From: Phycisphaerae bacterium
GTDB lineage: Bacteria; Planctomycetota; Phycisphaerae; Sedimentisphaerales; Anaerobacaceae
DNA length: 48,832 bases
Direction of reading: 5' to 3'
NCBI GenBank assembly: GCA_012744475.1
Contig: JAAYBV010000025.1
Coordinates: forward strand, 1 to 48,832
Shown here: piece by piece, positions 18,993 through 36,512 of the stretch
Position numbering within the stretch: position 1 is the stretch's first letter
Layout: each line of letters opens with the position of its first letter
Program-made: the position numbers and the translations under genes
The notes under the pieces: generated by a model
The model's input: only the letters and a program-made list of their open reading frames with translations
Databases searched by the model: none
Told to the model about the DNA's origin: nothing

Positions 18993-19532
18993 ATGAGAAT
19001 CGAATCGCAGGAACGATCGGATGCGGTTTTGGTCGAAGCAGCCCAGGGCGGCCACCTGGACAGCTTCGGGGCTCTCTATCAGCGCTATCACAATCCCATC
19101 GTGGCCCTGGCCTATGCTCAGCTGGGCGACCGGCACGCGGCCGAGGATGCCGCCCAGGAGGTGTTCGCCATCGCCTGCCGGGAGTTGCCTTCGCTGCGGG
19201 ACCGCGACAAGTTCGGGCCCTGGCTGGGCGGGATCTGCCGCAACGTCACCCGACAGATGCGGCGTCAGCGATTCCGGCTCGCTTCGCTGCCGGCCGAACC
19301 AGCCGACGAGCGGCCGTGCGAGGACGACGAACGATGGGAGGCGGTCCGCCGGGCGGTGTGGAATCTGCCCGACGCCGAGCGAGAGCTGATCGTGATGCGG
19401 TACTTCGATGGATTCAGCCAGGCCCGGATTTCGGCGGTCCTGGACATCACCCCATCGGCCGTCAACGGCCGGCTCATACGAGCGAAACGCAAGGTGGCAC
19501 AGTGGTTGAAACGTGATGGTTTCGGGAGCTGA
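18993..19532 (+). CDS. ECF-type sigma factor, cassette 1
   Basis: The product has 179 residues. Region 2 spans about 14-85: SFGALYQRYHNPIVALAYAQ, then HAAEDAAQEVFAIACRELPS with the region 2.2 core-binding helix, then FGPWLGGICRNVTRQMRR (2.3/2.4). Region 4 (about 122-172) has LPDAERELIVMRYFDGFSQA and a helix-turn-helix ending in NGRLIRAKRKVAQWLKR. There is no C-terminal extension. This sigma differs clearly from those of cassettes 3-8. It directs RNA polymerase to specific promoters and is presumably held by the FecR-type protein encoded three bases downstream. Confidence 0.88.
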   Translation: MRIESQERSDAVLVEAAQGGHLDSFGALYQRYHNPIVALAYAQLGDRHAAEDAAQEVFAIACRELPSLRDRDKFGPWLGGICRNVTRQMRRQRFRLASLPAEPADERPCEDDERWEAVRRAVWNLPDAERELIVMRYFDGFSQARISAVLDITPSAVNGRLIRAKRKVAQWLKRDGFGS

Positions 19533-19535
19533 GTC

Positions 19536-20603
19536 ATGGCACGCGTAAACGACGACAACTGGTTGGACGAGGCGCTGGACAAGGCCATCGGCTCGGACGA
19601 TACGCAGCCCGACTTCGAGGCGTGGAAGGCCCGCCATCGCGAGGCCGTGCAAGAGCTCACCTCGCGGACGCCGCAGCAGCAGCGCCCGCCCGTCATAAGG
19701 AGAATCGCCATGAACGGTCTGTTTGTCAAACTCGCGGCCGCCGCCGCGATCATCATCGCAGGAATCGTCGGCATCACCCAGTTGAACCAACGCGAGAATA
19801 TGGAACAAGCCACGATCTTGACCGGTCCCATGAATCACACGTTTGCCGATGGATCGGTGGTCGCGCTGACCGACGGCGCCCGAATTCGCACCTATGGCCA
19901 GGCCGGCCGGCGCGGCTTCGAGCACCTTGCCGGCGCAATCGATGTCACGGTCGCCAAGGGCAAGGGCGAGTTCATCGTCACGACCCCCTATGGCGAGGTC
20001 AAGGCGCTGGGCACGCAGTTTGCGATGGACCTCGTGGACGGCGTCGCCGACACAGGCCAGCAGGTCCAACTGCTGGCGGTCGAGGTCACCAAGGGCAAGG
20101 TCGAGGTCCGCAACGCCAAGGGCGCAACGATGCTGGAGGCAAAGCAGGACGCCATCGTCGGGAAGGATGTGGCGCCGTATGACTTCCGTCAGGACCAAAC
20201 GCTGCCCGCCCGACTGAAAGAACGGATCGGGGCGATGGTCGCCGCCTTTGCGGCCGGTGACCGGGCTGCCTGGGCCGCCAATTTCAACTTCGACTACCTC
20301 TTCAAGCTGGCCAAGGGCCAAGTCCAGTACGATCCGCTCCGCTTCGGCGGCAGCGAGGAAGACGCCAGGCGGCTCGGCGAGATGACCGCGAACATCACCA
20401 GCCCTCAGGAGATGTCGAAAACCTTTCTCGGCGCCATCAACATCGCGGGACCGACCACGGTCTACATTCGACAGGTCACGCTCAGCGCCGACGGCGCCCA
20501 CGCCAAGGCAGAGTGCGTCACCCGCAAGACCGATCGCGGCATGACGGTCATCTGGCCCCAATGGCACCACTTCGACAACGACTGGTGGCAGATCGACGAC
20601 TGA
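19536..20603 (+). CDS. FecR-domain membrane protein (presumed anti-sigma/sensor), cassette 1
   Basis: The product has 355 residues. Residues 1-58 are cytoplasmic and charged. One transmembrane helix (about 64-80, KLAAAAAIIIAGIVGI) precedes a FecR domain at about 95-205 with FADGSVVALTDGARI, GEFIVTTPYGEVKALGTQFA and a Val-Glu-Val-Arg strand. The C-terminal 130 residues, ending in WWQIDD, look like a separate NTF2-like fold; this is tentative. FecR proteins pass an envelope signal to their sigma partner. The ATG at 19536 has GGGAG seven bases upstream, just inside the sigma stop region. A second Shine-Dalgarno and ATG lie at 19697-19712. Confidence 0.87.
   Translation: MARVNDDNWLDEALDKAIGSDDTQPDFEAWKARHREAVQELTSRTPQQQRPPVIRRIAMNGLFVKLAAAAAIIIAGIVGITQLNQRENMEQATILTGPMNHTFADGSVVALTDGARIRTYGQAGRRGFEHLAGAIDVTVAKGKGEFIVTTPYGEVKALGTQFAMDLVDGVADTGQQVQLLAVEVTKGKVEVRNAKGATMLEAKQDAIVGKDVAPYDFRQDQTLPARLKERIGAMVAAFAAGDRAAWAANFNFDYLFKLAKGQVQYDPLRFGGSEEDARRLGEMTANITSPQEMSKTFLGAINIAGPTTVYIRQVTLSADGAHAKAECVTRKTDRGMTVIWPQWHHFDNDWWQIDD
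19697..19712 (+). promoter_or_regulatory. Internal Shine-Dalgarno and in-frame ATG, cassette 1 partner
   Basis: AAGGAGA (19697-19703), six bases, then ATG (19710), codon 59, five residues before the transmembrane helix. Confidence 0.55.
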
Positions 20604-20741: not shown

Positions 20742-21341
20742 ATGGCGAACGAAGCAGCAGAGGTTGGATTGGAATCACATACTGAGGTTTTCGACGAGGA
20801 CGAGATGCTCGTCGCGGCCGCTTGCAGGGACACGCAGGCAGCGGGAAGGCTCTACGACAAGCACTACGAAGCGATCTTCCGCTATATCTGTCGCTGCACG
20901 CCGGACCGCGCGACTGCCGAAGACCTGACCTCGAACGTGTTCCTGGCCGCATTTCGCCATCTGAAGCGCCTTCGCTGGCGACCGATGCGGTTTCAGGCCT
21001 GGCTTTATCGGATCGCCACGAACGAGATTCGGATGCAGTATCGCAGGGCCAAGCGCATCCGAGCCTGGCGTACGACAACGGGCGGCAGCGGCATAGATAC
21101 CGCCCCACCGGCCAGTGACCGGTCGGCAGCAGCGGAAGAGTATCGTCTGCTGCACGAGGCCTTGCTGCGTCTGAAACCGAAGTATCGCACGGTGATCGTG
21201 CTGCGGTATTTCGAGGATCGGACGATCGCGGAGATCGCCGAAATCACCGGCCGCAAGGAAGGAACGCTCCGCTGTCACTTGCATCGCGGGCTGGCCCAAT
21301 TGCAGGATATCCTTTCACGTTATGGCGTATTGCCCCGATAG
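20742..21341 (+). CDS. ECF-type sigma factor, cassette 2
   Basis: The product has 199 residues. The N-terminal 20 residues are acidic. Region 2 (about 25-100) includes AAGRLYDKHYEAIFRYICRC, TAEDLTSNVFLAAFRHLKRL and FQAWLYRIATNEIRMQYRR; the DLTSNVFL form sets it apart from the other sigmas here. Region 4 (about 140-192) reads LKPKYRTVIVLRYFEDRTIA, EIAEITGRKEGTLRCHLHRG. ATG 20742 has GGAG seven bases upstream; an alternative in-frame ATG at 20709 overlaps the -10-like TATGAT and is less likely. The partner gene starts ten bases after its stop. Confidence 0.85.
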   Translation: MANEAAEVGLESHTEVFDEDEMLVAAACRDTQAAGRLYDKHYEAIFRYICRCTPDRATAEDLTSNVFLAAFRHLKRLRWRPMRFQAWLYRIATNEIRMQYRRAKRIRAWRTTTGGSGIDTAPPASDRSAAAEEYRLLHEALLRLKPKYRTVIVLRYFEDRTIAEIAEITGRKEGTLRCHLHRGLAQLQDILSRYGVLPR

Positions 21342-21351
21342 GGGGTGGACC

Positions 21352-22071
21352 ATGAGCAAGAACATCGAACGAATCGACCACTATCTCAGAACCGTTGCCC
21401 TGCCGGAGCCTGTGCCCGGTCCCCATCGGCACGAGCTGCGCCGGCAGGTGCTCAATGAAATCGAAAGGAGACGGACCATGTCCGCACGAGGAAGAAACTG
21501 GAAGCTGGCAGCGGTGGCTGCCGTTGTGTTGGGCGCCGGAGCCCTGTCCGCTGTCGGCGTGAATATCGGAAGGATCTACTACCGGGGCAAAACCGAGGAC
21601 GGCGCCGCCCACATCTTCTACAGCGAAGGGGGCGAAGGGACCTCGGGCGAGCTCTTCATCACCATGGATGCCAACGGCGTCACGGACGTGGAGCAGACCC
21701 GAACGGACCTGGAAGAAATGCAGGGCCTGAGTCAGCAGGGCAAGAAGGAACTGCTCCAGGTCAAAGAGACGGTCATCGGCAGCTATCGGCTGAAGAAGCA
21801 CGAGTACCGGTATCAACTTGCGGACGGGCGAACCCAGGAGATGGGCGAACCTGCCGCCGACACGCCCATGTACAGCCAGGAGCAATGGGGAGAATTCAGT
21901 CCGCAGTTGAAGGAGTTCTGGGGACTCCGCGACGCAGGACCGGGAGAGGACCTCGGCACGCATGAGGAAACCGTGGAGGGCCGTGTCTTCTCCTTCAAAC
22001 GGGAACGGTACGTCCTCGGCGATGGCACCGAAGCGATCTGGTCCGTTGGTACGCCCAAGGACGGCCAATAG
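21352..22071 (+). CDS. Single-pass membrane partner with two copies of a ~53-residue repeat, cassette 2
   Basis: The product has 239 residues. The cytoplasmic part (1-49) contains the helix HELRRQVLNEIERRR. The transmembrane helix covers about 50-70 (WKLAAVAAVVLGAGALSAVG). The outside part begins GRIYYRGKTEDGAAHIFYSE and then has two copies of a module: about 120-170 (DLEEMQGLSQQGKKELLQV ... YQLADGRTQEMGEP) and about 183-236 (LKEFWGLRDAGPGEDLG ... RYVLGDGTEAIWSVGTP). I know no named family for it. It is presumed to restrain the cassette 2 sigma. GGGGGTGG precedes the ATG. Confidence 0.75.
   Translation: MSKNIERIDHYLRTVALPEPVPGPHRHELRRQVLNEIERRRTMSARGRNWKLAAVAAVVLGAGALSAVGVNIGRIYYRGKTEDGAAHIFYSEGGEGTSGELFITMDANGVTDVEQTRTDLEEMQGLSQQGKKELLQVKETVIGSYRLKKHEYRYQLADGRTQEMGEPAADTPMYSQEQWGEFSPQLKEFWGLRDAGPGEDLGTHEETVEGRVFSFKRERYVLGDGTEAIWSVGTPKDGQ
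21464..21480 (+). promoter_or_regulatory. Internal Shine-Dalgarno and in-frame ATG, cassette 2 partner
   Basis: AAAGGAG (21464-21470), seven bases, then ATG (21478), codon 43, shortly before the transmembrane helix. Confidence 0.55.
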
Positions 22072-22135: not shown

Positions 22136-22210
22136 GCGCGGAACGGTCTTGCGGTGGTCACAAGTTGCGCAGAAAAACCGGGATTTCCGGTATTGGAGCG
22201 GCGTTCTCCG

Positions 22211-22238
22211 GCGTGATAATGGTGGAAAACGATCGTTT
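22211..22238 (+). promoter_or_regulatory. -10-like element and ACGATCGT palindrome, cassette 3
   Basis: GCGTGATAATGGTG includes GATAAT (22215-22220). It is followed by AACGATCGTTT, whose ACGATCGT core recurs in the leader of cassette 4. Confidence 0.4.
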
Positions 22239-22258: not shown

Positions 22259-22795
22259 ATGATTGAAGACGAACTACTGAAACTCGGGCTCAAACGGGGC
22301 CGGCCGGAGGCGCTACGGCGCATCTACGAGAAGTACCTGAACTACATGCTCAGCGTGGCGATGGCGTTTCTGAACGATGCCCATGCGGCCGAGGACGTAG
22401 TGCACGACGTCTTCGTATCGCTGGCCCGCTCGCCGGACCGGTTCAAGCTGACCGGGAGCCTGAAGCATTATCTGGCGACGTGCGTCGCCAACAAGGCCCG
22501 GGACTATCTTCGAGCGGGCAAGCGCAACGCTGTTCGGGTTCGTGCGATCGCCGAGCCGCAGCGCGAGGCGGGTTCGCCCGAGGAAAGCCTGATCTGCGAC
22601 GAGCAGGCCCGGCAGGTGTACGAGGCGCTGGCCCAGGTCCCGTACGAGATGCGCGAGGTGATCGCGCTGCGGATCAAGGCCGGCCTGGGATTCAAGCAGA
22701 TTGCCCGGATGCAGAACGCCTCGTATGTGGCCGTCCAGGCGCGCTACCGACGAGGCATCGAGACACTGCGGTCACTTCTGAATGGAAGGCTCTGA
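22259..22795 (+). CDS. ECF-like sigma factor, cassette 3 (paralogue group of six)
   Basis: The product has 178 residues. It starts with MIEDELLKLGLKRGRPEALR, the mark of the group formed by cassettes 3-8. Region 2: IYEKYLNYMLSVAMAFLN, AAEDVVHDVFVSLA, LTGSLKHYLATCVANKARDY. Region 4: VPYEMREVIALRIKAGLGFK, QIARMQNASYVAVQARYRRG. The C-terminus LRSLLNGRL is shared with its siblings. ATG 22259 has little Shine-Dalgarno (GAGCGG). The partner ATG follows the stop by one base (TGA-G-ATG), so translation is probably coupled. Confidence 0.87.
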   Translation: MIEDELLKLGLKRGRPEALRRIYEKYLNYMLSVAMAFLNDAHAAEDVVHDVFVSLARSPDRFKLTGSLKHYLATCVANKARDYLRAGKRNAVRVRAIAEPQREAGSPEESLICDEQARQVYEALAQVPYEMREVIALRIKAGLGFKQIARMQNASYVAVQARYRRGIETLRSLLNGRL

Positions 22796-22796: not shown

Positions 22797-23954
22797 ATGA
22801 GACCGGCAGAGAAGACAGAACACGCAATCAAGAAAGCGAACTGTGAGGCCTCCGAGCGGACGCGGCAGCGCCTGTGGCAGTCAATCGTTCAGACGCAGCG
22901 GGCGTCGTCGACCGCCCCATCGGAACTCACGAATCCAAAGGTAGGGAGATTTCTCATGAACGCAAGAATCTTGAAGGCGGCATTGGTGCTGGCTCTGATC
23001 GTCACGGGGGCGATCGGCGCGACCATCGGCGTGAGAGTGTATCGGTACCATTTTGTAGGCCGGGACACCGAGGGCAGATACCACTTCGAGTCGGAACCTG
23101 AAATCGTCTATCAACGGACCAGCCAGGACGCCAATGGCTGCACCGAGGGCGTGGGCGTCGCCGGCGGCAGTTCGGTGGTGATGGGTGGGCGTGACTCCGA
23201 GGAGGTGAACGTCGAACAGATGCAGAGCGATCTGGAAGAGATCGCCCGACTGCGAGCCCAGGGCCTCGGAGAACTGGTGGGCGTGCTCGACACCCAGGTC
23301 AACGGTCACTTCACCCGAGCGTATAGCATGAAGTACACGCTGGCGGATGGCCGCACCATCACCATAGGCGAGAATGCACCGAACGTGGACATACAGCGGA
23401 CCCCCGTCCAGAGGGAAAACGACTATGCGGAAGTGGCGCGTCTGCGCGAGCAAGGCCGCCGCGAGGTGACCCAGGTGACCGAGTACGATCTGGACGGGCA
23501 GGTCATGCGCGTGTTGGCATGCCGCTATGTGCTGGCCGACGGCCGGGAGATCGGCATGGGAGAAGGCGATCCCGAGCTGCCGCCACCGACGAAGATCCTG
23601 GCCCCGGAGCAGATCTTCGAAGTAGGACGCCTCAAGACCCTCGGACAAGGTGAATCGCTCGGCACATCCCAGAGGCAGATGTACGGCAAGACCTTCACTT
23701 TCCAGACGCGTCGCTTCACGCTCGCCGACGGCACCGTCGTGACCTGCGCCGAAGGCACGCCCGTGGGAGGCAAGATCACTCTGACCGAGGCCGATTGGGA
23801 CGAGTTGAAGGCATTGACCGTACAGGGCGCCGGCGAGGACCTGGGCAGCTATGAGGAAGAGATTAACGGGGTGGTGTTCGTCTTCCCGCGCACGCGCTAC
23901 ACCCTCCGCGACGAGACCGAAGTGATCTGCTCACACGGCACGCCGAAGCAATAG
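22797..23954 (+). CDS. Single-pass membrane partner with four copies of a ~53-residue repeat, cassette 3
   Basis: The product has 385 residues. The cytoplasmic segment (1-53) includes ERTRQRLWQSIVQTQRA. The transmembrane helix lies at about 58-75 (ILKAALVLALIVTGAIGATI). Outside, a lead segment GRDTEGRYHFESEPEIVY resembles that of the cassette 2 partner. Four modules follow, each with E-x-x-x-L-x-x-x-G, then a G-x-x-x-x-x-x-x-x-Y/F-T/V-L-A-D-G strand and an E-G-T-P-like end: about 143-195, 209-262, 270-325 and 333-385. The function is unknown; it is a presumed sensor or anti-sigma factor. GGAAGG sits seven bases before the ATG, inside the sigma gene end. Confidence 0.78.
   Translation: MRPAEKTEHAIKKANCEASERTRQRLWQSIVQTQRASSTAPSELTNPKVGRFLMNARILKAALVLALIVTGAIGATIGVRVYRYHFVGRDTEGRYHFESEPEIVYQRTSQDANGCTEGVGVAGGSSVVMGGRDSEEVNVEQMQSDLEEIARLRAQGLGELVGVLDTQVNGHFTRAYSMKYTLADGRTITIGENAPNVDIQRTPVQRENDYAEVARLREQGRREVTQVTEYDLDGQVMRVLACRYVLADGREIGMGEGDPELPPPTKILAPEQIFEVGRLKTLGQGESLGTSQRQMYGKTFTFQTRRFTLADGTVVTCAEGTPVGGKITLTEADWDELKALTVQGAGEDLGSYEEEINGVVFVFPRTRYTLRDETEVICSHGTPKQ
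22944..22958 (+). promoter_or_regulatory. Internal Shine-Dalgarno and in-frame ATG, cassette 3 partner
   Basis: GGGAG (22944-22948), seven bases, then ATG (22956), codon 54, directly before the transmembrane helix. Confidence 0.55.
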
Positions 23955-24015: not shown

Positions 24016-24146
24016 CCATGCGCTCCGTCTGGTCCCTCTCAGCCGGACTCTGACGATCCGGCGTGCTTCTCGTCGCCCACCCCGCCATCCCTCCGGTGGA
24101 AACCATCGCACAATAGAGATTTCTTATGTCCAAATGGGGGCGCGGA

Positions 24147-24170
24147 TCGTGATAATGGTGAACGACGATC
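24147..24170 (+). promoter_or_regulatory. -10-like element and ACGATCGT palindrome, cassette 4
   Basis: ATCGTGATAATGGTG includes GATAAT (24151-24156). It is followed by GACGATCGTTG, closely matching the cassette 3 leader. Confidence 0.4.
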
Positions 24171-24198: not shown

Positions 24199-24735
24199 AT
24201 GCTCGAAGATGAATGGTTGAAGCTGCGGTTCAAGGCAGGCAGTGACGACGCGTTGCGGCGGATCTATGAGAAGCACCGCGACCGGCTGCTGACGCTGGCG
24301 ATGGGCTTGCTCAACGACAGCCACATGGCTGAGGATGTGCTGCACGATGTGTTCGTGACGTTCACGCAATCGGCGAATGGGTTCCGCCTGCGGGGCAGCC
24401 TGAAGAGCTATCTGGCCACGTGCGTCGCCAACCGGGCGAGGGATCGCTTGCGAGGCCGGAAGCACCAGCCTGCCAGTCTGGACGCCAGCCTCGACGTGAC
24501 ATCGGATTTCGATGGACCGGATACAAGGACGATCACAACGGAACAGTCGCGTCTGGTCAGCGCGGCCATGGAGCAACTGCCCTACGAGCAACGTGAGGCC
24601 GTCGCCCTACACCTGAACGGCAACCTGACGTTCAAGCAGATCGCCAGACATCAAGGCGTTTCCATCAGCACCACCAAAGGCCGCTACCGGTACGGCCTGC
24701 AAAAGCTGCGGTCGACCCTCAATGGGAAACTGTGA
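24199..24735 (+). CDS. ECF-like sigma factor, cassette 4 (paralogue group of six)
   Basis: The product has 178 residues. It starts MLEDEWLKLRFKAGSDDALR. Region 2: IYEKHRDRLLTLAMGLLN, MAEDVLHDVFVTFTQSA, LRGSLKSYLATCVANRARDR. Region 4: LPYEQREAVALHLNGNLTFK, QIARHQGVSISTTKGRYRYG. The ATG at 24199 was chosen by alignment with its siblings; a longer frame to 24172 begins next to the promoter-like element. The partner ATG lies one base after its TGA. Confidence 0.87.
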   Translation: MLEDEWLKLRFKAGSDDALRRIYEKHRDRLLTLAMGLLNDSHMAEDVLHDVFVTFTQSANGFRLRGSLKSYLATCVANRARDRLRGRKHQPASLDASLDVTSDFDGPDTRTITTEQSRLVSAAMEQLPYEQREAVALHLNGNLTFKQIARHQGVSISTTKGRYRYGLQKLRSTLNGKL

Positions 24736-24736: not shown

Positions 24737-26212
24737 ATGAAACCGATGAAAGAGACAAGACGCATGGTGAAGGACATGTCGTTTGCCACCGGTCCGGAGA
24801 TGGATGAGCACCTGTGGAAAGCGATGGCCGAGCAACGACATCGACCGGAAGACATGACACCGAGACGCGCCGAGACCCGCGCATGGAGGATTCTCATGAA
24901 AAGCAAGATCGCAAAACTGGCCGTCGCGGCCGTGGTCGTCGTGGCGGCCCTGGCGGTGGGCGTCGAGCAGTTCACTCGCGCGAAACAGGACAAGACACAC
25001 GCGTTCAGCGCTGAAATCCAGGCGAACATGGCGCTGGACCTGGACCCCAAGGGGGCGATTCCCCTGCGACAGACCCGGCCGGGAGACTTCGACGTGACTT
25101 GGGACGGAGAGGACGGCGGCACGCTGAGGATCATGCCCGGCTCGTCCCTGCGGCTCTGTACGCCTTCGAAGCACCAGCCCAAGGCGGACCAGGCCCTCTT
25201 ATGGGCCTATTCCATACTGGCGGAGATGCCCGAAAGCACGACCACGAGCGTCTCAGCCCGCCAGAGCCGCTTCGCCGCCATCCTGACAAGTGACGGAAAT
25301 CTGGCGGTCGTCCAGATCGGCGATTATGACGAGAACAAAGCCCGACTCCAGTGGCAGGTGGAAGACCCCACACCGCCCGGCTATGGTCCCGTCCAGGTCG
25401 TGACACTGACCTGTCTCGATCCGGAGAAGCCCTCGACACAGCCGTGCGCCATCGACTTCGACACCGGACAGACAAGCGTCATTCCGGCACAAGCGCTGAG
25501 TCTACCCCCGGAAGACCTTCTGGACTGGCTCCAGCAGAATGGGATCGATGCCATCGCTCGGGTGGCGGACAACAGCGGCAGTCTGGTCGGCGCAGGGTTG
25601 GTCGTGCAGGACCTGGACCCCGGCTACTGGGTGATGGCCCGTGCTCTGAACATCCGTCACTCCATAGCCGGCATCGCGTACGAGTCCCGCGATCCGATTC
25701 CCTATCGAGAGGGCCAATTCCAACGCGTTCACCCCTTCAAGACGCGCGAAGGCGGCATAGGAATCCTCCAGATGCGCGGCATGGATTGCGCCGAGCGGAC
25801 GCTACAGTTTCGCTACAAGATGGTGCAGGGGGATTCGGCGATCGCCCTCGATGGCACAGGCGAGAAGGATGCGGAATTGACCCAGATCTACGCATCGGCG
25901 ACATGGCTCGCCGATCTCGGGAAATATGTGCTGCTCTACGCCGGCGAGCACGAGGACCGACTGCCCCAGTCGCTGGAGGAACTGCGGGACTATGCCGAGA
26001 GCGATGAGAATCATCGGTGGATGGTCCATGACGTGGAGTACCTCGGCGCCGGACTGACGTGTGCCGACCCGTTTTCCACGGTTGTGGCCTACGACCGGAC
26101 CCTTCTCGCGGCGGGCAAGGGAACCAACGTGCTGTTCCTCGACTCGCGCATCGAGTTCGTCGAGGCCGAAAGACTGGCGACGCTCGGTCTGCCCGCCGGG
26201 AACGAGAAATAG
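24737..26212 (+). CDS. Single-pass membrane partner with pseudopilin-like C-terminus, cassette 4
   Basis: The product has 491 residues. The cytoplasmic segment (1-53) is charged. The transmembrane helix is at about 57-75 (KIAKLAVAAVVVVAALAVGV). The ectodomain (about 80-390) is mostly beta by composition and not recognised. The last 100 residues carry YVLLYAGEHEDRLPQSLEEL and TNVLFLDSRIEFV, resembling the tail of planctomycete pseudopilin-like proteins (DUF1559 type), where an N-V-L-F-x-D-G motif is usual; here it is NVLFLDS. GGGAAA precedes the ATG. It is a presumed regulator of the cassette 4 sigma; the ligand is unknown. Confidence 0.72.
   Translation: MKPMKETRRMVKDMSFATGPEMDEHLWKAMAEQRHRPEDMTPRRAETRAWRILMKSKIAKLAVAAVVVVAALAVGVEQFTRAKQDKTHAFSAEIQANMALDLDPKGAIPLRQTRPGDFDVTWDGEDGGTLRIMPGSSLRLCTPSKHQPKADQALLWAYSILAEMPESTTTSVSARQSRFAAILTSDGNLAVVQIGDYDENKARLQWQVEDPTPPGYGPVQVVTLTCLDPEKPSTQPCAIDFDTGQTSVIPAQALSLPPEDLLDWLQQNGIDAIARVADNSGSLVGAGLVVQDLDPGYWVMARALNIRHSIAGIAYESRDPIPYREGQFQRVHPFKTREGGIGILQMRGMDCAERTLQFRYKMVQGDSAIALDGTGEKDAELTQIYASATWLADLGKYVLLYAGEHEDRLPQSLEELRDYAESDENHRWMVHDVEYLGAGLTCADPFSTVVAYDRTLLAAGKGTNVLFLDSRIEFVEAERLATLGLPAGNEK
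24885..24898 (+). promoter_or_regulatory. Internal Shine-Dalgarno and in-frame ATG, cassette 4 partner
   Basis: GGAGGA (24885-24890), five bases, then ATG (24896), codon 54, directly before the transmembrane helix. Confidence 0.6.
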
Positions 26213-26278: not shown

Positions 26279-26358
26279 CGCCGGTTGTGTAAAATGGGGG
26301 CCGAGGAGCGTGCTATGGGGAAAGAGCGCTCTTGGGAATCCGGATTCTACTCGTGCGG

Positions 26359-29223: not shown

Positions 29224-29232
29224 TGGTATAAA
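29224..29232 (+). promoter_or_regulatory. Extended -10 element, cassette 7
   Basis: TGG precedes TATAAA (29227-29232). GACGGTG follows. No -35 match was seen 17 bases upstream. Confidence 0.45.
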
Positions 29233-29267
29233 TGACGGTGATCTTGAGCTTGGGAAAGTCGGTGCGG

Positions 29268-29813
29268 ATGCTGGAAGACACGGTGCTCATCTGGAGGTTC
29301 AAACGCGGCAGCCGCGAGGCGCTGTGCCGGATCTACGAGAAGTACCGCACCGACCTGCTCCGACTGGCCGCCATGCTGCTGAGGGACAAAGGCGACGCCG
29401 AGGACGCGGTGCACGACGCCTTCGTGTCCTTCGCCCGGTCGGCCGAGACGCTGAAGCTCAGCGGCAGTCTCAAGGGGTACCTGCTCACCTGCGTCGCGAA
29501 CAACGCACGCAACCGCAATCGGGCCCGGCAACGAAAGCAGACCGTCGGGCTGGACGAAGCGGCGGAGGCGGCCTCGCCGGATAAGACGCCCGAGCAGTGG
29601 ATCGCATACAACGAGGAATTGCAGCGATGGAGCGACGCACTGGCAGAGTTGCCTTACGAGCAGCGGGAGGTCGTCACACTGCACCTGCGAGCGGGCATGA
29701 CGTTCCGTCGGATCGCCCGTTCGCAGGCGGTTTCAGTCAATACCGTCAAGGGCCGCTATCGCTACGCACTGGCAAAACTGCGGTCAACGTTCAATGGCGA
29801 GTTGGAACCATGA
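29268..29813 (+). CDS. ECF-like sigma factor, cassette 7 (paralogue group of six)
   Basis: The product has 181 residues. It starts MLEDTVLIWRFKRGSREALC. Region 2: IYEKYRTDLLRLAAMLLR, DAEDAVHDAFVSFARSA, LSGSLKGYLLTCVANNARNR. Region 4: LPYEQREVVTLHLRAGMTFR, RIARSQAVSVNTVKGRYRYA. The ATG at 29268 aligns with the siblings; an in-frame ATG at 29232 would sit on the -10 element. The stop overlaps the partner ATG (ATGA). It shares a cysteine (REALCRIY) with the cassette 8 sigma, suggesting these two are closest. Confidence 0.87.
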   Translation: MLEDTVLIWRFKRGSREALCRIYEKYRTDLLRLAAMLLRDKGDAEDAVHDAFVSFARSAETLKLSGSLKGYLLTCVANNARNRNRARQRKQTVGLDEAAEAASPDKTPEQWIAYNEELQRWSDALAELPYEQREVVTLHLRAGMTFRRIARSQAVSVNTVKGRYRYALAKLRSTFNGELEP

Positions 29814-30250
29814 GATCGGAGAAAGACATCGAACGATCCTTCAAACAGGCGAATCTGGACGTCACGGTGGGTGCCGAGTGTGACCGCCAGATTCTGGATG
29901 AGCTGCTCGACGTGCAGTGCAAGTCCGCTTCGCCGCACGCCACCTGGTGGCCGGTGCCCCGCTCCTGGGCATTGAGCCTGGCCGCTGTCGTGGCAGTCGT
30001 CACCGTCATCGTCCTGCTCGTCAGCCGTAGCAGGCCGCTCGAATCCAAACCAGCCCCGTCGAAACCGCGAATCGTGTCGAGGATCGAACTGGCGACCGCT
30101 ATCTCGCTGGAGAAGGCGTTTCGGCAAGGCGGAATCGAGGCGGTGGAGAGGCAGTGCAAAGAGACTTTTGGAGCCTTTCGAGCAGACGCGAAGACTCCAT
30201 CCGTCGATGAGTTGCTAACGCACCTGGAAAACGAGATGAAAGACCTTTAG
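29810..30250 (+). CDS. Short single-pass membrane partner, cassette 7
   Basis: The product has 146 residues, far shorter than the other partners. The cytoplasmic segment (1-48) holds RSEKDIERSFKQANLDVTVG and a DRQILDELLDVQ helix. The transmembrane helix is at about 51-72 (WALSLAAVVAVVTVIVLLV). Only about 75 residues lie outside, ending in a helix SVDELLTHLENEMKDL. No internal start is present before the helix. It is a presumed anti-sigma factor; the large ectodomain seems to be replaced by the separate exported protein encoded 11 bases downstream. The start overlaps the sigma stop. Confidence 0.75.
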   Translation: MRSEKDIERSFKQANLDVTVGAECDRQILDELLDVQCKSASPHATWWPVPRSWALSLAAVVAVVTVIVLLVSRSRPLESKPAPSKPRIVSRIELATAISLEKAFRQGGIEAVERQCKETFGAFRADAKTPSVDELLTHLENEMKDL

Positions 30251-30261: not shown

Positions 30262-31428
30262 ATGACAACGAAGAAGAGTCACCTGATGGGATTGCTGTGT
30301 GCCGTGACATTCGCGCCCTGGGCCTCGCCGGCCGCGGCGTACCCGCCGGACAACGCCGCCGTGCTCTACTACCAGGCCTTCATGCTTTATCAAGCCGAAG
30401 ACGAGATCAAGCCGATGCTGGATGACTATTGGCATGGCCGGATCGAACGCAATGAGACACTGGAGGCGTATCTCGCGAAGAACCGGCCCGTTATCGACAT
30501 GGTGCTCGATGCCACGCGCATCGATCGCTGCGACTGGGGCTTGGACTACGCCCAGGGCACCGAGGTGCTGCTGCCCCCCCACAATCAGGCCAGGAACGTC
30601 TTCTTCCTCATCGCCGCCGAGGCTACCATGCAGTTCGACAAGGGGCACCCGAGGACGGCGATGGAACACTGCATCGCCATGTACCGCATGGCGCGGCATC
30701 TCAACGAGCGTCCGCTGATCTGCTATCTCGTCGGCGTCGCGATCAATGCGGCGACTCACAAGTGCGTTACCCGCTTCCTGTCCCGGATGCCGCCGGACGC
30801 TGAGATGCTGACCTGGCTGCAATCGGAATTGGCGGAACTCGACAAGCAGCCGTTCTCAATCGGGCCCGTGCTCAAGTGGAAACGCGAGGCGGCGATCGTT
30901 TCCATGGCGCCCGACAAGATCGGCAACGCCGTGCAGGCTGGGTTGGACGATTGCGATTTCAAGACGAAGGTTCTGGAGCTCGTTCGCACCGCCGATGCAC
31001 AGTTCTACACCAGGAACATCGCCTATTGGAACGACTTCATGGACCACGTGGAGGCGGCTTTCGCAATTCCCTATCCGCAAGCGTACGCGAAATTGGGGGA
31101 ACTGAGCAAGACGCTATCAGCAGACTGCGATACGAACCAGGATGCAGTCTTGACGGCTTGTTTCGCACCGACGTTCCAACGCGTCTACGCTCTCTCCATC
31201 CGACTGGCCGCCGACTCGAATGCGCTGCGGAATGCCATTGACGTGTACTCATCCTATGCCAAAACGGGCCGCTTGCCCGACGCCCTGCCCGCCGGTCTCC
31301 CACAGGACCCGTTCAGCGGTGAACCGTTCCAGTACGAGAAGACCGCGAGCGGCTTCACCCTGCGCTGCGCAGGCAAGGACCTGGACAAGAACGAACCCTA
31401 CACATTCGAGTACGGCGTCAAGAAATAG
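30262..31428 (+). CDS. Exported protein of unknown function, third gene of cassette 7
   Basis: The product has 388 residues. The N-terminus (KKSHLMGLLCAVTFAPWASP) is a signal peptide. The body is helical (VLYYQAFMLYQAEDEIKPML, FFLIAAEATMQFDKGHPRTA), and the C-terminus (LPQDPFSGEPFQYEKTASGF) resembles a motif common at the end of planctomycete secreted proteins of pseudopilin type. No enzyme motif was recognised. ATG 30262 has GAGG upstream; a GTG at 30253 is a less likely alternative. It lies in the same transcript as the cassette 7 sigma and short membrane partner and may be the sensor that contacts that partner (inference). Confidence 0.7.
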   Translation: MTTKKSHLMGLLCAVTFAPWASPAAAYPPDNAAVLYYQAFMLYQAEDEIKPMLDDYWHGRIERNETLEAYLAKNRPVIDMVLDATRIDRCDWGLDYAQGTEVLLPPHNQARNVFFLIAAEATMQFDKGHPRTAMEHCIAMYRMARHLNERPLICYLVGVAINAATHKCVTRFLSRMPPDAEMLTWLQSELAELDKQPFSIGPVLKWKREAAIVSMAPDKIGNAVQAGLDDCDFKTKVLELVRTADAQFYTRNIAYWNDFMDHVEAAFAIPYPQAYAKLGELSKTLSADCDTNQDAVLTACFAPTFQRVYALSIRLAADSNALRNAIDVYSSYAKTGRLPDALPAGLPQDPFSGEPFQYEKTASGFTLRCAGKDLDKNEPYTFEYGVKK

Positions 31429-31484: not shown

Positions 31485-31535
31485 CGCTGAATTCGCACGC
31501 GAGGAGTTTTCGTTTGAGTAAAACGGGGCTCGTGC

Positions 31536-31549
31536 GTGTTATATAGGTG
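31536..31549 (+). promoter_or_regulatory. -10-like element, cassette 8
   Basis: GTGT precedes TATATA (31540-31545), and GGTG follows directly as in cassettes 2-4. Confidence 0.4.
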
Positions 31550-31587: not shown

Positions 31588-32163
31588 GTGCTGGAAGACC
31601 GATATCTCGTTTGGCGGCTGAAGCAGGGAAGCCGCGACGCGCTATGCCGCATCTATGGCAAGTACAGAGAGGATCTGCTCCGGCTGGCGGTTTCGCTGTC
31701 CAATGAGACGACGTTGGCGGAGGACGTCGTCCAGGACGTGTTCGTCGCGTTCATCGGCGGCGCGCCTCAGTTCCGGCTGACCGGCTCGCTGAAGGGTTAT
31801 CTGGCGACGTGCGTGGCCAATCGCGTGCGAAACGCCAACCGCGACCGCCGGCGGCGCGGGCAGGTCGGCCTCGACGAGATTCGATCGGTCGCCTCCGAAT
31901 CGGTCCGGCCGGACCAGTGGGCCATCTGTAGCGAGGAACTCGAGCGCGTCGCCCGCGCGATGGCCCTGCTCTCGTACGAACAGCGCGAGGTGATCGCCCT
32001 GCGCCTTCAGGGCGCGCTGCGGTTTCGCCAGATCGCGGAACTGCAAGGCGTGCCGATCAAGACGGTCCTGAGCCGATACCGGTGCGGACTCGGGAAGCTT
32101 CGGTCACTGCTCAATGGTGAGGTCACACAATGCGATTGCTTAGAGATATCAAGAAATCTGTAG
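31588..32163 (+). CDS. ECF-like sigma factor, cassette 8 (paralogue group of six)
   Basis: The product has 191 residues. It begins at a GTG (31588): (V/M)LEDRYLVWRLKQGSRDAL. Region 2: IYGKYREDLLRLAVSLSN, LAEDVVQDVFVAFIGGA, LTGSLKGYLATCVANRVRNA. Region 4: LSYEQREVIALRLQGALRFR, QIAELQGVPIKTVLSRYRCG. After the usual LRSLLNGEV end there are about 13 extra residues (TQCDCLEISRNL), so the gene overlaps its partner by 34 bases, unlike its siblings. This probably reflects loss of the usual stop codon. No clear Shine-Dalgarno site precedes the GTG. Confidence 0.85.
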   Translation: MLEDRYLVWRLKQGSRDALCRIYGKYREDLLRLAVSLSNETTLAEDVVQDVFVAFIGGAPQFRLTGSLKGYLATCVANRVRNANRDRRRRGQVGLDEIRSVASESVRPDQWAICSEELERVARAMALLSYEQREVIALRLQGALRFRQIAELQGVPIKTVLSRYRCGLGKLRSLLNGEVTQCDCLEISRNL

Positions 32164-34163
32164 CCCAGGCGGGCATCCGCACGGCCCCCGGCGCCGACCG
32201 GGCGGTCCTGGAACACCTGCTCGAGCAATTACCCGACAACCAGAAGAGATCTTCGGCGGCGTACGATCCGCCGAAGGGAAGGAGAAGCATTATGAGAAGT
32301 CCAGTCACGAGGTTCGCTGCGGCGGCGGTATTCCTGGGCGTTGCCGGGGTGCTGATCGCCATGATGGTCAGGACAACGACGCCGGCCTACGCCTTCGGAC
32401 AGACGGTGGAAGCGATGCAGGGCAAACGCTCGTTCCACATACAAACCTACTGGCAACAGCAACGCAAAGATGAATTCTGGGCCGAGTTCGACAAAGATGG
32501 AAACCTGATTCGCTTTCGGCAACATGAGAGCGAAGGTCCTGAGAACACTCTCGTGACGATCTGGGAAGACAACGTCATGAGCCAGTACTATCCGCCGCCG
32601 TGGGGCGTTCACCTGATGACGCACGTCGAGAACACCGGCGGCGGATTGGAGGGACTGGAGGAGTTCGATCCGGAGACGATCGTCACGGGGATTGATGCGC
32701 TGGTGGCGGAGGGCAAGGCCGTCATGGAGATGGAAGAGTCTTTGCGCGATACGTACCGGATGACGATTCACGTGAAGCGCACGGACGGTGAACCGCTGAA
32801 ACAGACTCTGGTGGTCGATCCCGTCACGAAGTTCGTCGTTCGAATCGACGACCACTGGGGCCAGGAGGACGGAGGAACGATCCATCACGGCATCGAGGTG
32901 CTGGAATACAACGAGGTGATGGACCCCGGACTCTTCGAGCGCGCTTTCCCCGAGGGCACCGTCCTGATAGACCAGGTGACGCAGGAGGTGGGGATGGCGC
33001 AAGGCGACATGACCAACGACAAGGCTGCCGTGGAGGTTCTCCGTCAGATGCTGGAAGCCTGGGCGCAAGGGGATTACGCCACGGCGGGCAATCTCTGCGG
33101 CGGCGCGCCGGTCGAAATGCTGAGCGAGCGTTATGCCCACCTGCGGCCCGTACGTATCCTCTCCATTGGACAGCCGGCGCCGATCCGGTTCATTTCGCCC
33201 AGGTTCAGGATTCCATGTCAGTACGAGATCGAGCGTGATGGGCAAACGGAGGTCACCAGCCAGGAGTTCTATGTCTTCGCCGTGAATGGTCGCCCCGGCC
33301 GTTGGTATGTGTTCATTGCACACACCACCCCGATCCCCTCCAGGGACAAACAGGTCAAGGCGATGCAGGATGATGACGACACCTCCGGGGGGTACTCCGT
33401 AGCCCTGGCCGGTGCGGTGGTCGACCCGCAAGGCAACGTCGTACCCGATGCGTGGATCTTCGCATCCTACGCCGCACCGGGTCAGACCGATGCCCAGGGG
33501 ACATTCGCCCTGCCCGCCCCGCCGACAGACGGCAGCCAGTCGATAGGACCGGTGGACCTGCCCATGTTCGTCTGGGCTTACACGGACAGCGATCCGTACA
33601 GCGTGGCATGGACCGTGATCCGACCGCCTTCTGAGCCCGCACCGGTTCGGCGTAGAATCTCCGATGAGCCAGACGATTCGGACGAACGCGTGGAAGAGAC
33701 ACATCAGGGCGTAGTTCTCACCATCCGCAGCGAAGAGGAATTCCTCGCGAACTTGCCCGGTGATCCGGGCCAGCTCGCCGGCAACGGGTCCATGTACGGC
33801 GACCCTCAGATTGGCGACGTCGTGCTCGTCACCGGCCCGGCCGGCGTCATCGCGGGACAGGTGACCGATGTCAACGGCGTTCCCGTCGCCGATGCCCTGG
33901 TCCTGGCCAAAGCAATCGAATTGCAGATCGGATCGAACACGCTCCGCGCAGGGGGGCTCGATAGAGAGTGGAAAGCCGGGTTTGCTTCGCAAACGGATGC
34001 CGACGGCCGCTACAGCCTGGGACATCTGCCGTCCTGCTGGACGCAGGCAACAATCGTCGTAGAAGCCGACGGACAGGGACGTGCGCAACAGGTGGTTCTG
34101 CACGCCGGCGTGGACACGACGTACGACATCATCCTGGCGGAGGCCAGCGAGGAGGAGCCATAG
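32130..34163 (+). CDS. Single-pass membrane partner with LolA-like and carboxypeptidase-regulatory domains, cassette 8
   Basis: The product has 677 residues, the largest partner. The cytoplasmic segment is 1-54. The transmembrane helix is at about 60-78 (FAAAAVFLGVAGVLIAMMV). The LolA-like domain (about 83-285) opens with TPAYAFGQTVEAMQGKRSFH and closes with YNEVMDPGLFERAFPEG. A middle domain at about 295-400 follows. Then come two carboxypeptidase-regulatory-like beta sandwiches: LAGAVVDPQGNVVPDAWIFA with QTDAQGTFALPAPP, and IAGQVTDVNGVPVADALVLA with SQTDADGRYSLGHLP. These often bind sugars or peptides outside the cell. GGTGAGG precedes the ATG. Confidence 0.78.
   Translation: MRLLRDIKKSVAQAGIRTAPGADRAVLEHLLEQLPDNQKRSSAAYDPPKGRRSIMRSPVTRFAAAAVFLGVAGVLIAMMVRTTTPAYAFGQTVEAMQGKRSFHIQTYWQQQRKDEFWAEFDKDGNLIRFRQHESEGPENTLVTIWEDNVMSQYYPPPWGVHLMTHVENTGGGLEGLEEFDPETIVTGIDALVAEGKAVMEMEESLRDTYRMTIHVKRTDGEPLKQTLVVDPVTKFVVRIDDHWGQEDGGTIHHGIEVLEYNEVMDPGLFERAFPEGTVLIDQVTQEVGMAQGDMTNDKAAVEVLRQMLEAWAQGDYATAGNLCGGAPVEMLSERYAHLRPVRILSIGQPAPIRFISPRFRIPCQYEIERDGQTEVTSQEFYVFAVNGRPGRWYVFIAHTTPIPSRDKQVKAMQDDDDTSGGYSVALAGAVVDPQGNVVPDAWIFASYAAPGQTDAQGTFALPAPPTDGSQSIGPVDLPMFVWAYTDSDPYSVAWTVIRPPSEPAPVRRRISDEPDDSDERVEETHQGVVLTIRSEEEFLANLPGDPGQLAGNGSMYGDPQIGDVVLVTGPAGVIAGQVTDVNGVPVADALVLAKAIELQIGSNTLRAGGLDREWKAGFASQTDADGRYSLGHLPSCWTQATIVVEADGQGRAQQVVLHAGVDTTYDIILAEASEEEP
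32279..32294 (+). promoter_or_regulatory. Internal Shine-Dalgarno and in-frame ATG, cassette 8 partner
   Basis: AAGGAG (32279-32284), seven bases, then ATG (32292), codon 55, five residues before the transmembrane helix. Confidence 0.6.
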
Positions 34164-34426: not shown

Positions 34427-34954
34427 TTGAACGACGCGGCCGACGACAACGCAGTGCAAGCTTGCCGGCAAGGGGACAAGGCGGCGTACGCCACCCTGGT
34501 CGAGAGGCACTACCGACGCGTCTTTGCCCTGTGTCTGGGCATGATGGGCAGCGCACACGACGCCGAAGACCTCACCCAGGAGGTGATGCTCAAGGGCTTT
34601 ACGAATATCCGCAAGCTGTCCGACGCCGGGCGGTTTGAGCCTTGGATACTGAAGGTCGCCAGAAATCTGTGCCTCGATGCCCTGCGAAGGCGGAAACGTC
34701 TCAAGGCCAGGGCCGCCGAGCAAGCAGTTGAGCAGGTACGAGAACCGCATGCGGACCATGATCTGGAGCGCGCCATCCGGCGGCTGCCGCTGGAACTCCG
34801 CGTCCCACTGACCATGTACTACTTCGAGCAGAAAGACGCCGAAACGATCTCCACGATACTGAATATCTCTCACTCGCTGGTTTGTCAGCGGATCCGCGCA
34901 GCAAGAAACGAGTTGCACGCCCTGCTGATGGAAGGAGATCACGATGAACGCTGA
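34427..34954 (+). CDS. ECF-type sigma factor, cassette 9
   Basis: The product has 175 residues. It is a third sigma type in the array: AVQACRQGDKAAYATLVERH, AEDLTQEVMLKGFTNIRKLS, FEPWILKVARNLCLDALRRR for region 2, and LPLELRVPLTMYYFEQKDAE, SLVCQRIRAARNELHALLM for region 4. A TTG start at 34427 (GGGGA seven bases upstream) is needed, because an in-frame stop stands right before it; GTG at 34454 would cut into region 2. It overlaps the partner ATG by 11 bases. Confidence 0.83.
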   Translation: MNDAADDNAVQACRQGDKAAYATLVERHYRRVFALCLGMMGSAHDAEDLTQEVMLKGFTNIRKLSDAGRFEPWILKVARNLCLDALRRRKRLKARAAEQAVEQVREPHADHDLERAIRRLPLELRVPLTMYYFEQKDAETISTILNISHSLVCQRIRAARNELHALLMEGDHDER

Positions 34955-36512
34955 TTGCCGGAGAATCAGAGACCATATCTCAGATGCCATCTCAGATGCC
35001 CTGCCCGAGGCAGATGAGCGAGCCCTTCGAGAGCACCTCGATGGCTGTGCCGATTGCCGCCGGTATGCCCAATCGCTGGCACGGGAACATGCCTCTCTGG
35101 CCGACCACTTCGCCCGGATCGACGCCGGCATGGCCGCTCGCCGGTCGCAGGTGTTAGCCGCGATCGAGCAGCCTCGGCTAGCAGTCCCATCCCTGCGAAG
35201 GCGAATCCTGAGGAAAGTGGCCGTTGCCGCAGCCATCCTTGTCGCGGCCGGACTTGGTCTTCGCTGGATCGGCCTGGGGACGGCCGCCTACGGACTCACC
35301 GAGGCCCTGGAACACTCACAGAATGCCGATGTCATCCACATCAAGGGATGGCACCTGCGGGAGTCCGTCGATAGCGGAGAACTCAAGAGACTGCCTTTCG
35401 AGCACTGGATCGACCGCAGGAACGGCCGCTACAGAGACGACTACACCATCGGGTACGCCGATTCGGACCCGAACCGGCCGCTGTGCATGCTGGAGGTCTT
35501 TGACGGCGAGTATTGCATGGATACGCGCGGTTACTCCACCGATCCCGCCACGGGACGGACTACGCTATCGATAGAATACGCAAAGCTGAGTCCCTTCCAG
35601 CGACGTCTCAAGATGCACACCATGGGGGCGTTCCCCGCGTTCATGAAACACCTCCGCGAGGTGAAGGGATTCACCCGGACCGGACGCGAGCAGATCGAAG
35701 GGACCGCGACCGATGTGTGGGAAGGTGAAATCGTCGCGCCGGACGAGACTGTCCCGTACACGAAGCTGAGAATATGGTTGTCCCCCTCGACAGGCCGGAT
35801 ACTCCGCATCCGTCGATGGTTGAACGAAAAGGAGGACTCGGTAGAATGGATGCTGAGGCAGGAGGCCCACACGATCGAATACGACGTCCTACCACCGCCG
35901 GATTGTTTTCGCACCGATCCCCCTGACGGCTATGAGCTGGTCAATACGAAAGCCACTGCGGTCACGCGAGAGCTTGGTGACTATGACGGTAGGTCAAGAT
36001 TCTACACGTGCGTTGGGTTCACGCTGAACGACGGAAGCGTCATCCTCGGCTGGCATGCCAATCATCTGCCCCAGGAATCCCAGGCCGACGTCTTCGCCAA
36101 TCTGCGGCCGGCGGAGTCTCTGCCCCAGCTACCGGCGCGTGTGGTGGCCTTGAAGCCCTGGCCCATCGAAGAAGAGGACACGATCCTGGCGGGTTATCAT
36201 CTGGCCTGGACGGCGAAGAGAGGCAAGTTCTACGAATGGGGTCTCTATGTGCCAGACAGGAAGGTGCCGGAACGCAACACGTTCAAGTACTACAAGGTCA
36301 TCTCGGAATACAGTGGCGTGGAACCCCGGAGTTTCGGCGGCCGGCCGAATCTCGTGGCGGAGGAGGTGACCATCACGTCGGACGTTGAGTTCAAGACCTG
36401 GGTCATCGGGGCCATGGCGGAGCTGAGCGACAACAGCGTGGCGCCAGCCCATGTGACATATGAGAACGTCATGACCCTCGCGAGACAGATTCACTCGTCC
36501 CTCAATCCATAG
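34944..36512 (+). CDS. Zinc-finger anti-sigma factor with LolA/RseB-like ectodomain, cassette 9
   Basis: The product has 522 residues. The cytoplasmic end carries HLDGCADCRRY (about 31-41), an HxxxCxxC motif of zinc-binding anti-sigma domains; this is the only partner with the textbook motif. The transmembrane helix is at about 92-108 (VAVAAAILVAAGLGLRWIG). The ectodomain begins TAAYGLTEALEHSQNADVIH and resembles the LolA-like domains of cassettes 6 and 8. Its last 200 residues are paralogous to cassette 6 (GAMAELSDNSVAPAHVTYEN). Where the internal ATG would be expected, the sequence reads CTG. AAGGAG sits six bases before the ATG. Confidence 0.85.
   Translation: MNADCRRIRDHISDAISDALPEADERALREHLDGCADCRRYAQSLAREHASLADHFARIDAGMAARRSQVLAAIEQPRLAVPSLRRRILRKVAVAAAILVAAGLGLRWIGLGTAAYGLTEALEHSQNADVIHIKGWHLRESVDSGELKRLPFEHWIDRRNGRYRDDYTIGYADSDPNRPLCMLEVFDGEYCMDTRGYSTDPATGRTTLSIEYAKLSPFQRRLKMHTMGAFPAFMKHLREVKGFTRTGREQIEGTATDVWEGEIVAPDETVPYTKLRIWLSPSTGRILRIRRWLNEKEDSVEWMLRQEAHTIEYDVLPPPDCFRTDPPDGYELVNTKATAVTRELGDYDGRSRFYTCVGFTLNDGSVILGWHANHLPQESQADVFANLRPAESLPQLPARVVALKPWPIEEEDTILAGYHLAWTAKRGKFYEWGLYVPDRKVPERNTFKYYKVISEYSGVEPRSFGGRPNLVAEEVTITSDVEFKTWVIGAMAELSDNSVAPAHVTYENVMTLARQIHSSLNP

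Follow-up and report, generated by a model that had tools for sequence, protein, structure and literature searches.

Apparent exchange of sensor domains at a putative nested start in a planctomycete array of extracytoplasmic function sigma cassettes

We analysed a 48,832-nucleotide stretch of a Phycisphaerae bacterium (assembly GCA_012744475.1, contig JAAYBV010000025.1; hereafter the window), which is contig C104 of a 5.75-Mb, 118-contig genome. Between positions 18993 and 36512 (17.5 kb) it holds nine cassettes, all on the plus strand, each pairing a sigma factor gene of the extracytoplasmic function (ECF) type with a gene for a membrane partner protein. Our main reading, to which we give a probability of about 0.65, is that a cassette works as an independent sigma/anti-sigma switch and consists of two exchangeable modules, with a nested translation start in the partner gene and control limited to its own operon. 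The first module would consist of the promoter, the sigma gene and a short cytoplasmic N-terminal domain of the partner, presumed to hold the sigma. The second would begin at the juxtamembrane joint and comprise a Shine-Dalgarno sequence, an ATG, the membrane anchor and the ectodomain. Comparison with relatives supports the view that the modules have been recombined at or near this joint between cassettes, genomes and ECF groups.

An earlier model-made interpretation of the letters (the sequence-only reading) had described nine plus-strand sigma/partner cassettes, and the open reading frames and Pfam bear it out: Sigma70_r2 is matched in all nine small genes and region 4 also in eight, cassette 5 having region 2 only. 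Eight sigmas have the ECF makeup (regions 2 and 4 without region 3, roughly 180 residues), s5 being the exception, and the nearest solved chains to the array sigmas are ECF sigmas. The array accounts for 9 of the 68 Sigma70_r2 matches in the genome, all on one strand. Partner starts lie within about 10 bases of the sigma stop or overlap it, as had been proposed: the genes are 3 bases apart in cassette 1 and 10 in cassette 2, and overlaps range from 4 to 34 bases (ATGA in cassettes 6 and 7, 34 bases in cassette 8, 11 in cassette 9), the partners of cassettes 3 and 4 having two candidate starts each (overlap of 14 bases, or 1 base apart). The proposed one membrane helix per partner is found in eight partners as a single strong hydrophobic segment.

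The five sigmas s3, s4, s6, s7 and s8 share 47-55% pairwise identity, and the truncated s5 is 39-45% identical to them; s1, s2 and s9 are 19-32% identical to any other array sigma and fall into three other ECF clusters (1, 3 and 2, respectively). A profile of the five gave at least 178 or at most 134 bits across the fetched loci, with only s5 (151) in between. By this measure cassettes 3-8, already singled out as related in the sequence-only reading, are one discrete ECF group, present in Phycisphaerae/Sedimentisphaerales-type records. Relatives were taken from a pattern scan of genome contigs (best 80 matches, 79 loci). The best matches listed (L001-L029) are 43-71% identical and all come from planctomycete records, many titled Phycisphaerae or Sedimentisphaerales; those listed further down reach at most 37% identity and come from mixed phyla, except for one Phycisphaerales match (L042, 46%). 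s6 was matched at 1e-15 or better in 41 of 61 genomes (its own and 60 relatives), with 6 to 31 matches per genome in five congeners. Among the 25 best NCBIfam matches listed, no equivalog exceeded its cut-off for s1, s2, s6 or s9.

The fetched loci yielded 174 distinct group sigmas (bits >150, s5 included), 166 of which have a single-helix partner, joined by a 4-base overlap in 115 cases and with the helix starting at a median of residue 58. The other eight are s5, cuts by masked bases or contig ends, one weak helix and one displaced start. Partners were collected without s5 as a query, given that s5 also finds partner C-termini. These counts come from draft metagenome assemblies, with related rows counted separately and with starts, helices and partners called heuristically.

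Exchange of the sensor part is strongly supported by comparison of these cassettes. Splitting partners at the membrane helix gave 224 ectodomains of at least 60 residues in 24 families, and several of these families extend over unrelated ECF clusters. Among 339 similar ectodomain pairs (identity of 40% or more across 60% of the shorter member), 89 join different ECF clusters, or 83 once five doubtful rows combining a group-like N-terminus with a non-group sigma are removed; without L022_8013 alone, which looks like a damaged group member, the count is 87. In a strict recount, 43 of the 83 join group-type and zinc-finger N-termini (the strict N-terminal class was used, an 8-bit cut being too loose in that 23 other partners pass it). 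The 83 pairs include related rows, which are not independent, and a single cassette (L156_2731) occurs in 14 of them. Seen from the sigma side, 143 cassettes have a nearest sigma of at least 60% identity, and in 54 of these the ectodomains show no similarity beyond 5% of the self score, a number that frame errors in draft genomes may inflate. A FastTree sigma tree with 162 labelled cassettes shows 42 changes of ectodomain family, against a floor of 19 and a shuffled mean of 65.9, suggesting that exchange is common but not random; the correlation of ectodomain similarity with sigma identity is r = 0.31.

Individual cassettes illustrate the pattern. The third sigma of the bin164 array is 73% identical to s3 and is paired with an ectodomain 48% identical to that of p4 over 411 residues, and a p3-type ectodomain sits on the neighbouring s2-type cassette (46% over 304 residues). 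In locus L086 a short partner of the p7 type goes with an s8-type sigma (68.5%), and a long partner with an s7-type sigma (75%). The p9 ectodomain is 49% identical over 413 residues to that of a group-sigma cassette, the sigmas being 18% identical and the N-termini different, and the p8 ectodomain is 66% identical over 318 residues to one behind a zinc-finger N-terminus. At the DNA level, positions 26956-27902 (947 bp: promoter, s6, N-terminal domain and helix) are 91% identical to the congener loci L080 and L081; beyond 27902 identity falls to about 50-60%, the ectodomains being 36% identical, and it is back at 82% in the terminator region of L080. Between L080 and L081 the ectodomains share 82% identity. 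In a hinge profile of partners with a recognised anchor (90 of 166 group partners, 31 of 62 others), same-sigma pairs without an ectodomain match (n = 93) keep residues 1-35, and in different-cluster pairs with similar ectodomains (n = 94) the agreement starts at the juxtamembrane anchor.

The sequence-only reading had pictured a sigma module duplicated while its sensor is swapped, and had held that genes scattered in relatives would count against such an array-based bank. The swapping stands, even between unrelated ECF groups; its confinement to arrays does not. The 144 cassette runs in the fetched stretches comprise 80 single cassettes, 41 pairs, 12 threes, 6 fours, 4 fives and 1 nine, these lengths being rough and biased short: the stretches are truncated, some of them overlapping, and any 2-kb gap ended a run (so that two arrays appear in two parts). 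Relatives thus carry runs of one to five, most often single, and arrays occur too. Arrays as the sole source of sensor diversity were rejected, since single cassettes are mosaic as well.

The joint itself bears the marks of a translation start. An alignment of 18 partners has M1 and M55 as its sole invariant columns. Of 166 group partners, 139 have a methionine no more than 16 residues ahead of the helix, as do 50 of the 62 other partners, compared with 72 of 206 control windows; GGAG or GAGG precedes the codon of this methionine in 81% and 60% of cases, respectively, against 8% of 1752 ectodomain methionine codons. At the genes' own starts the figures are 61% for group partners and 11% for group sigmas, and the nested start is the site in the operon that most often bears a Shine-Dalgarno sequence (the 16S 3' end reads GGATCACCTCCTTT). 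Arginine at -3 is AGA in 97 of 104 cases and arginine at -4 is AGG in 34 of 40 (background 13% for each), and the other ECF groups agree (AGA in 27 of 28, AGG in 14 of 15). The motif ends at -7 from the joint ATG in 129 of 149. ATG plus Shine-Dalgarno occurs in frame in 156 of 228 partners, compared with 0 and 5 in the other two frames, and, once group members are thinned at 55% identity, in 33 of the 41 that remain. Third-position A/T in the first eight codons past the joint ATG, taken over 80 high-GC cassettes, is 0.29-0.72 against 0.16-0.27 expected, a rise resembling that past the gene's own start, and folding is weaker there (-10.8 vs -16.4 kcal/mol). By ECF cluster, the nested start is present in 127/167, 11/20, 8/11, 4/11, 3/7, 3/3 and 3/3 partners, and in 3/6 across single-member clusters; in the window it is found in p1, p2, p3, p4, p6 and p8. 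Ectodomains shorter than 80 residues make up 14 of the 40 group partners without it and 4 of the 126 with it. The partner genes therefore combine a Shine-Dalgarno sequence, a start codon within the gene and selection at the nucleotide level, and we infer that they also make an anchored ectodomain protein lacking the presumed anti-sigma domain.

A two-block motif (TAtACtAA and cGTgaTATagG) lies upstream of 153 of 160 group sigmas, with the blocks 27 apart in 126 and 26 apart in 27, and the second block beginning at a median of -52; 150 of 160 score above the 95th percentile of shuffled sequence, the shuffles being scored with the matrix trained on real sequence. Promoter identity is 0.83 for the same sigma with different ectodomains (80 pairs) and 0.88 when both are the same (71 pairs), compared with 0.56 for the same ectodomain with different sigmas (104 pairs) and 0.54 for neither, and the partial correlation of promoter with ectodomain given sigma is 0.02. 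By these measures promoter letters follow the sigma, not the sensor. P4, P7 and P8 each match once in their own 5.75-Mb genome, at home (up to 3 mismatches; 2 for the P8 core), and P6 has one extra match, taken as chance because it falls within a same-strand ankyrin-repeat frame. P8-type sites occur once each in G002, G004, G036 and G022, by coordinates just upstream of s8-type sigmas, and are absent from G005. P7-type sites occur once each in five of nine genomes: four directly precede s7-type sigmas, and the fifth belongs to the decayed G005 array described below. The motif persists from one genus to another at no more than 2 mismatches. Taken together, these results make each promoter look private to its own sigma. 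The sequence-only reading missed both these promoters and the signs of a nested start.

Self-complementary elements sit just behind the predicted -10 boxes of P3, P5, P6 and P8 (Table 1), and in relatives their letters vary while the palindrome stays. With strict arms of at least 5 they occur in 68 of 152 cases (about 3 in shuffles) as 47 different sequences, and with arms of at least 4 after thinning in 21 of 51. Arm mismatches relative to expectation are 0.63 for G-T and 0.30 for A-C. The weaker G-T depletion hints at RNA, but at fixed centres the G-T and A-C ratios resemble each other, and self-complementarity extends to the centre, where a hairpin would not require it.

Under our preferred reading, the ectodomain would perceive a cue outside the cytoplasm, upon which the full-length partner would release its sigma, by proteolysis or rearrangement, and the freed sigma would transcribe its own operon. 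The nested start would supply extra anchored ectodomain without the anti-sigma part, and this short form might either tune sensitivity or be the very product whose amount is regulated by the switch. Arrays would grow and shrink through deletion and exchange between cassettes. Several observations weigh against this interpretation. The N-terminal domain of p3, p4, p6, p7 and p8 matches no Pfam model and that of p4, p6 and p8 no NCBIfam model, so the presumed anti-sigma role rests on operon position and conservation; binding of sigma by partner, expression and proteolysis are likewise points that we infer. The nested start is not present in 40 of 166 group partners, nor in p7 and p9, and just 4 of 11 partners in the s2-type cluster 3 have it. 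The third-position A/T signal is not specific, since it is also raised 9-19 codons before the joint ATG. Finally, P3 and P5, with one match each, were searched for in the window and not genome-wide, and the promoter searches had no positive control, so that degenerate targets would be missed.

The strongest competitor, which we regard as a serious but lesser prospect, is a conventional sensor bank resembling SigI/RsgI, in which the sigmas control degradative or stress regulons according to the ligand of the ectodomain and the private promoters are an artefact of a strict search. Single-helix partners adjoining ECF sigmas, the RseB-like ectodomain of p8, the matches to LamG, fucosidase, sialidase-N and TPR (one partner each among 18 related ones) and the carbohydrate-type secreted genes next to the array would all fit it. 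It sits less well with P4, P7 and P8 matching once in 5.75 Mb and P6 gaining one intragenic site, or with P7- and P8-type sites numbering at most one per genome in the relatives searched despite their conservation across genera. More tentatively, the cassettes might be product-sensing surface-protein switches instead of sensors that command a regulon: the ectodomain would be both payload, as the short form, and gauge, in the copies joined to the anti-sigma part, regulons would consist of one operon, and exchange at the joint would drop new payloads into insulated, self-regulating circuits.

It is improbable, in our judgement, that GGAGA..ATG at the joint is kept as DNA homology guiding recombination, or for the protein sequence W-R-x-I-M, with no second protein made. 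The joint is indeed the place of exchange and part of the conservation is in the amino acids W, R, I and M, but synonymous arginine codons are fixed to those spelling GGAGA in several ECF clusters, the spacing to the ATG is held in the 129 of 149 cases noted above, the codon ramp and weak folding resemble real starts, and presence of the nested start is linked with ectodomain size. Very improbable is the absence of any exchange, with ectodomains simply diverging faster than sigmas. Some family changes do involve distant members of one family (p6 and L080, at 36%), and similarity falls with sigma distance; against this, the same ectodomain recurs at 46-66% identity behind unrelated sigmas, 83 of 339 similar pairs cross ECF clusters, and identity drops abruptly at the joint.

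Among known systems, the logic of the switch that we favour is, by analogy, closest to SigI/RsgI. In the available parts of the relevant papers, Clostridium thermocellum and relatives have paralogous sigmas, each co-transcribed with a single-pass anti-sigma bearing its own ectodomain, with autoregulation, limited cross-talk between paralogues and regulons that include cellulosome genes (PMC6056542, PMC4711584, PMC12203970). The array shares the several paralogous sigmas, each with a single-pass partner and its own ectodomain, but is not a member of that system, its sigmas being ECF by Pfam and NCBIfam whereas SigI is not; moreover, no target beyond the own operon was found here, in contrast to the cellulosome genes in SigI regulons, and the same parts of those papers do not mention tandem layout, exchange across ECF groups or a nested start. 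Cue sensing followed by sigma release is standard in membrane-bound ECF/anti-sigma systems, and an ECF sigma beside a one-helix membrane protein, together with the RseB-like fold in p8, recalls sigma-E/RseA/RseB as far as the consulted parts of PMC8999054 describe it. The RseB-like part here lies inside partner p8, and the group N-terminal domain matches no anti-sigma domain model scanned. RseB, by comparison, is a separate periplasmic protein acting on RseA. Likeness to FecI/FecR, through the FecR domain of p1, is limited to cassette 1; no outer-membrane receptor gene was noted beside it, and no search aimed at one. For two in-frame starts in one gene, cheA offers a parallel, its short product lacking the first domain; the proteins are unrelated, and the omitted domain here would be the anti-sigma part.

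In the accessible portions of the literature, whose coverage was incomplete, neither a tandem ECF array nor a nested anti-sigma start was found (PMC8103513, PMC7406223, PMC9239204, PMC4711584, PMC8999054, PMC6056542). Nor did these sources bring up exchange across ECF groups or sigma-private promoters. Exchange across ECF groups at a nested-start joint, the tandem layout and the sigma-private promoters look new. If the proposed switch is right, anti-sigma genes of this lineage yield two proteins, which would change models of sigma/anti-sigma stoichiometry and sensing, and the nested start would show how new sensors are accommodated at an unchanging joint. The family, with over 150 natural sigma/promoter pairs whose letters co-vary, is a resource for orthogonal gene switches, and could be used to ask which parts must co-evolve for specific signalling.

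The domains proposed for the partners fared unevenly. FecR is confirmed in p1 (E = 9.6e-11), as is the carboxypeptidase-regulatory part, matched by CarboxypepD_reg in p8. The LolA/RseB-like ectodomain holds for p8, the only partner given this test: its fold matches RseB (2p4b, E = 9.8e-8) and LolA-type structures, at template-modelling scores (TM-scores) by target length of about 0.4-0.6 and a whole-model predicted local distance difference test value of 61. The repeat of about 53 residues is not what we find in p3, where a low-confidence model has four copies of one helix plus three strands spaced 61-67 residues; the corresponding fold search was unusable (best match E = 1.1e-5, TM-score 0.12). 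A pseudopilin-like tail in p4 lacks significant support in Pfam or NCBIfam. At the N-terminal side, p9 alone carries the HxxxCxxC motif of zinc-binding anti-sigma (ZAS) proteins, the group partners having another motif; in the scans named above these gave no sequence match to a class I anti-sigma domain, and the structure model has two short helices there at modest confidence. The LamG, fucosidase, sialidase-N and TPR domains of related partners and the carbohydrate-type secreted genes next to the array make glycans or envelope components plausible as cues. No common output of the sensors was found.

Hairpins follow all nine cassettes, as the sequence-only reading had said, the ninth without a T run. 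This claim rests on the repeated stem and not on a generic terminator scan, which gave 18 terminator-like sites against 12.8 expected. Near-identical AGGCCGG...CCGGCCT stems close successive cassettes at 26957, 29119, 31452, 34250 and 36538, and such shared stems are a possible second recombination site. An Rfam scan of 18500-37000 gave no match at gathering score.

Cassette 5 is collapsed and cassette 7 has a third gene, both as described before. The former lacks the sigma C-terminus and the partner N-terminus; its counterpart in the congener locus L093 (genome G005), 91% identical across the first shared 406 bases, is longer, with a sigma, a 294-residue partner and about 0.88 kb extra at the junction. 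At 8276-10914 L093 has one cassette remaining, flanked by short matches to other cassettes, homologues of window positions 40044-45091 stand behind it, and its P7-type promoter has no group sigma frame after it. The picture is of a decayed array at the same genomic place, which would fit array shrinkage by deletion and exchange. Cassette 7, with its short partner p7 and separate gene x7, looks like a split version, x7 being the presumed outer part of p7 and probably starting at ATG 30262.

Table 1. Predicted features of the array, in window coordinates.
Feature	Position	Strand	Basis
s1, ECF sigma of cassette 1 (ECF cluster 1)	18993..19532	+	Sigma70_r2 and r4_2
p1, FecR-type partner; nested start ATG 19710 behind AAGGAG	19536..20603	+	FecR, E 9.6e-11
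s2, ECF sigma of cassette 2 (ECF cluster 3); ATG start taken from open reading frame	20742..21341	+	Sigma70_r2 and r4_2
p2, partner with p3-type repeat ectodomain; nested start ATG 21478	21352..22071	+	ectodomain family 5, common to p3
P3, predicted promoter; self-complementary element next at ~22227-22238	22189..22222	+	motif
s3, group ECF sigma	22259..22795	+	Pfam, identity, group profile
p3, partner with repeat ectodomain; alternative start 22782; nested start ATG 22956	22797..23954	+	structure model, sequence
P4, predicted promoter	24124..24158	+	one match in own genome, up to 3 mismatches
s4, group ECF sigma	24199..24735	+	Pfam, identity
p4, partner; alternative start 24722; nested start ATG 24896	24737..26212	+	helix, ectodomain family, start scan
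P5, predicted promoter; self-complementary element at ~26322-26333	26286..26320	+	motif, window search
s5, collapsed cassette: sigma region 2 fused to partner-like C-terminus	26359..26877	+	Pfam, congener comparison
Hairpin after cassette 5	26957..26979	+	AGGCCGG...CCGGCCT stem
P6, predicted promoter; imperfect self-complementary element at ~27048-27059	27011..27044	+	motif
s6, group ECF sigma	27079..27627	+	Pfam, identity, genome matches
p6, partner with p9-type ectodomain; nested start ATG 27786; congener identity drops past ~27900	27624..29093	+	comparison
P7, predicted promoter	29199..29233	+	one match in own genome, up to 3 mismatches
s7, group ECF sigma	29268..29813	+	Pfam, identity
p7, short partner, almost no ectodomain; no nested start found	29810..30250	+	helix, ectodomain, start scan
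x7, third gene of cassette 7; own Shine-Dalgarno-like AGGTGAGG; signal-peptide-like start	30262..31428	+	sequence
P8, predicted promoter; self-complementary element at ~31553-31566	31515..31547	+	one match in own genome
s8, group ECF sigma	31588..32163	+	Pfam, identity
p8, partner with RseB/LolA-like and CarboxypepD_reg parts; nested start ATG 32292	32130..34163	+	Pfam, fold match
s9, ECF sigma of cassette 9 (ECF cluster 2)	34427..34954	+	Pfam, cluster
p9, zf-HC2 partner with p6-type ectodomain; no nested start found	34944..36512	+	zf-HC2, E 3.1e-8

Behind the array, positions 39694-48371 hold secreted-type genes with DUF5060/collagen-binding, CBM9, F5/F8 type C and LamG domains; those at 41925-45107 and 45447-48371 seem related, because parts of both match the same L093 stretch. 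Upstream of the array lie a gene for an ankyrin-repeat protein (15250-17007), distinct from the ankyrin gene elsewhere in the genome that contains the extra P6 match, and one for a ParE-type toxin of a type II toxin-antitoxin system (17260-17556; Pfam E = 1e-19).

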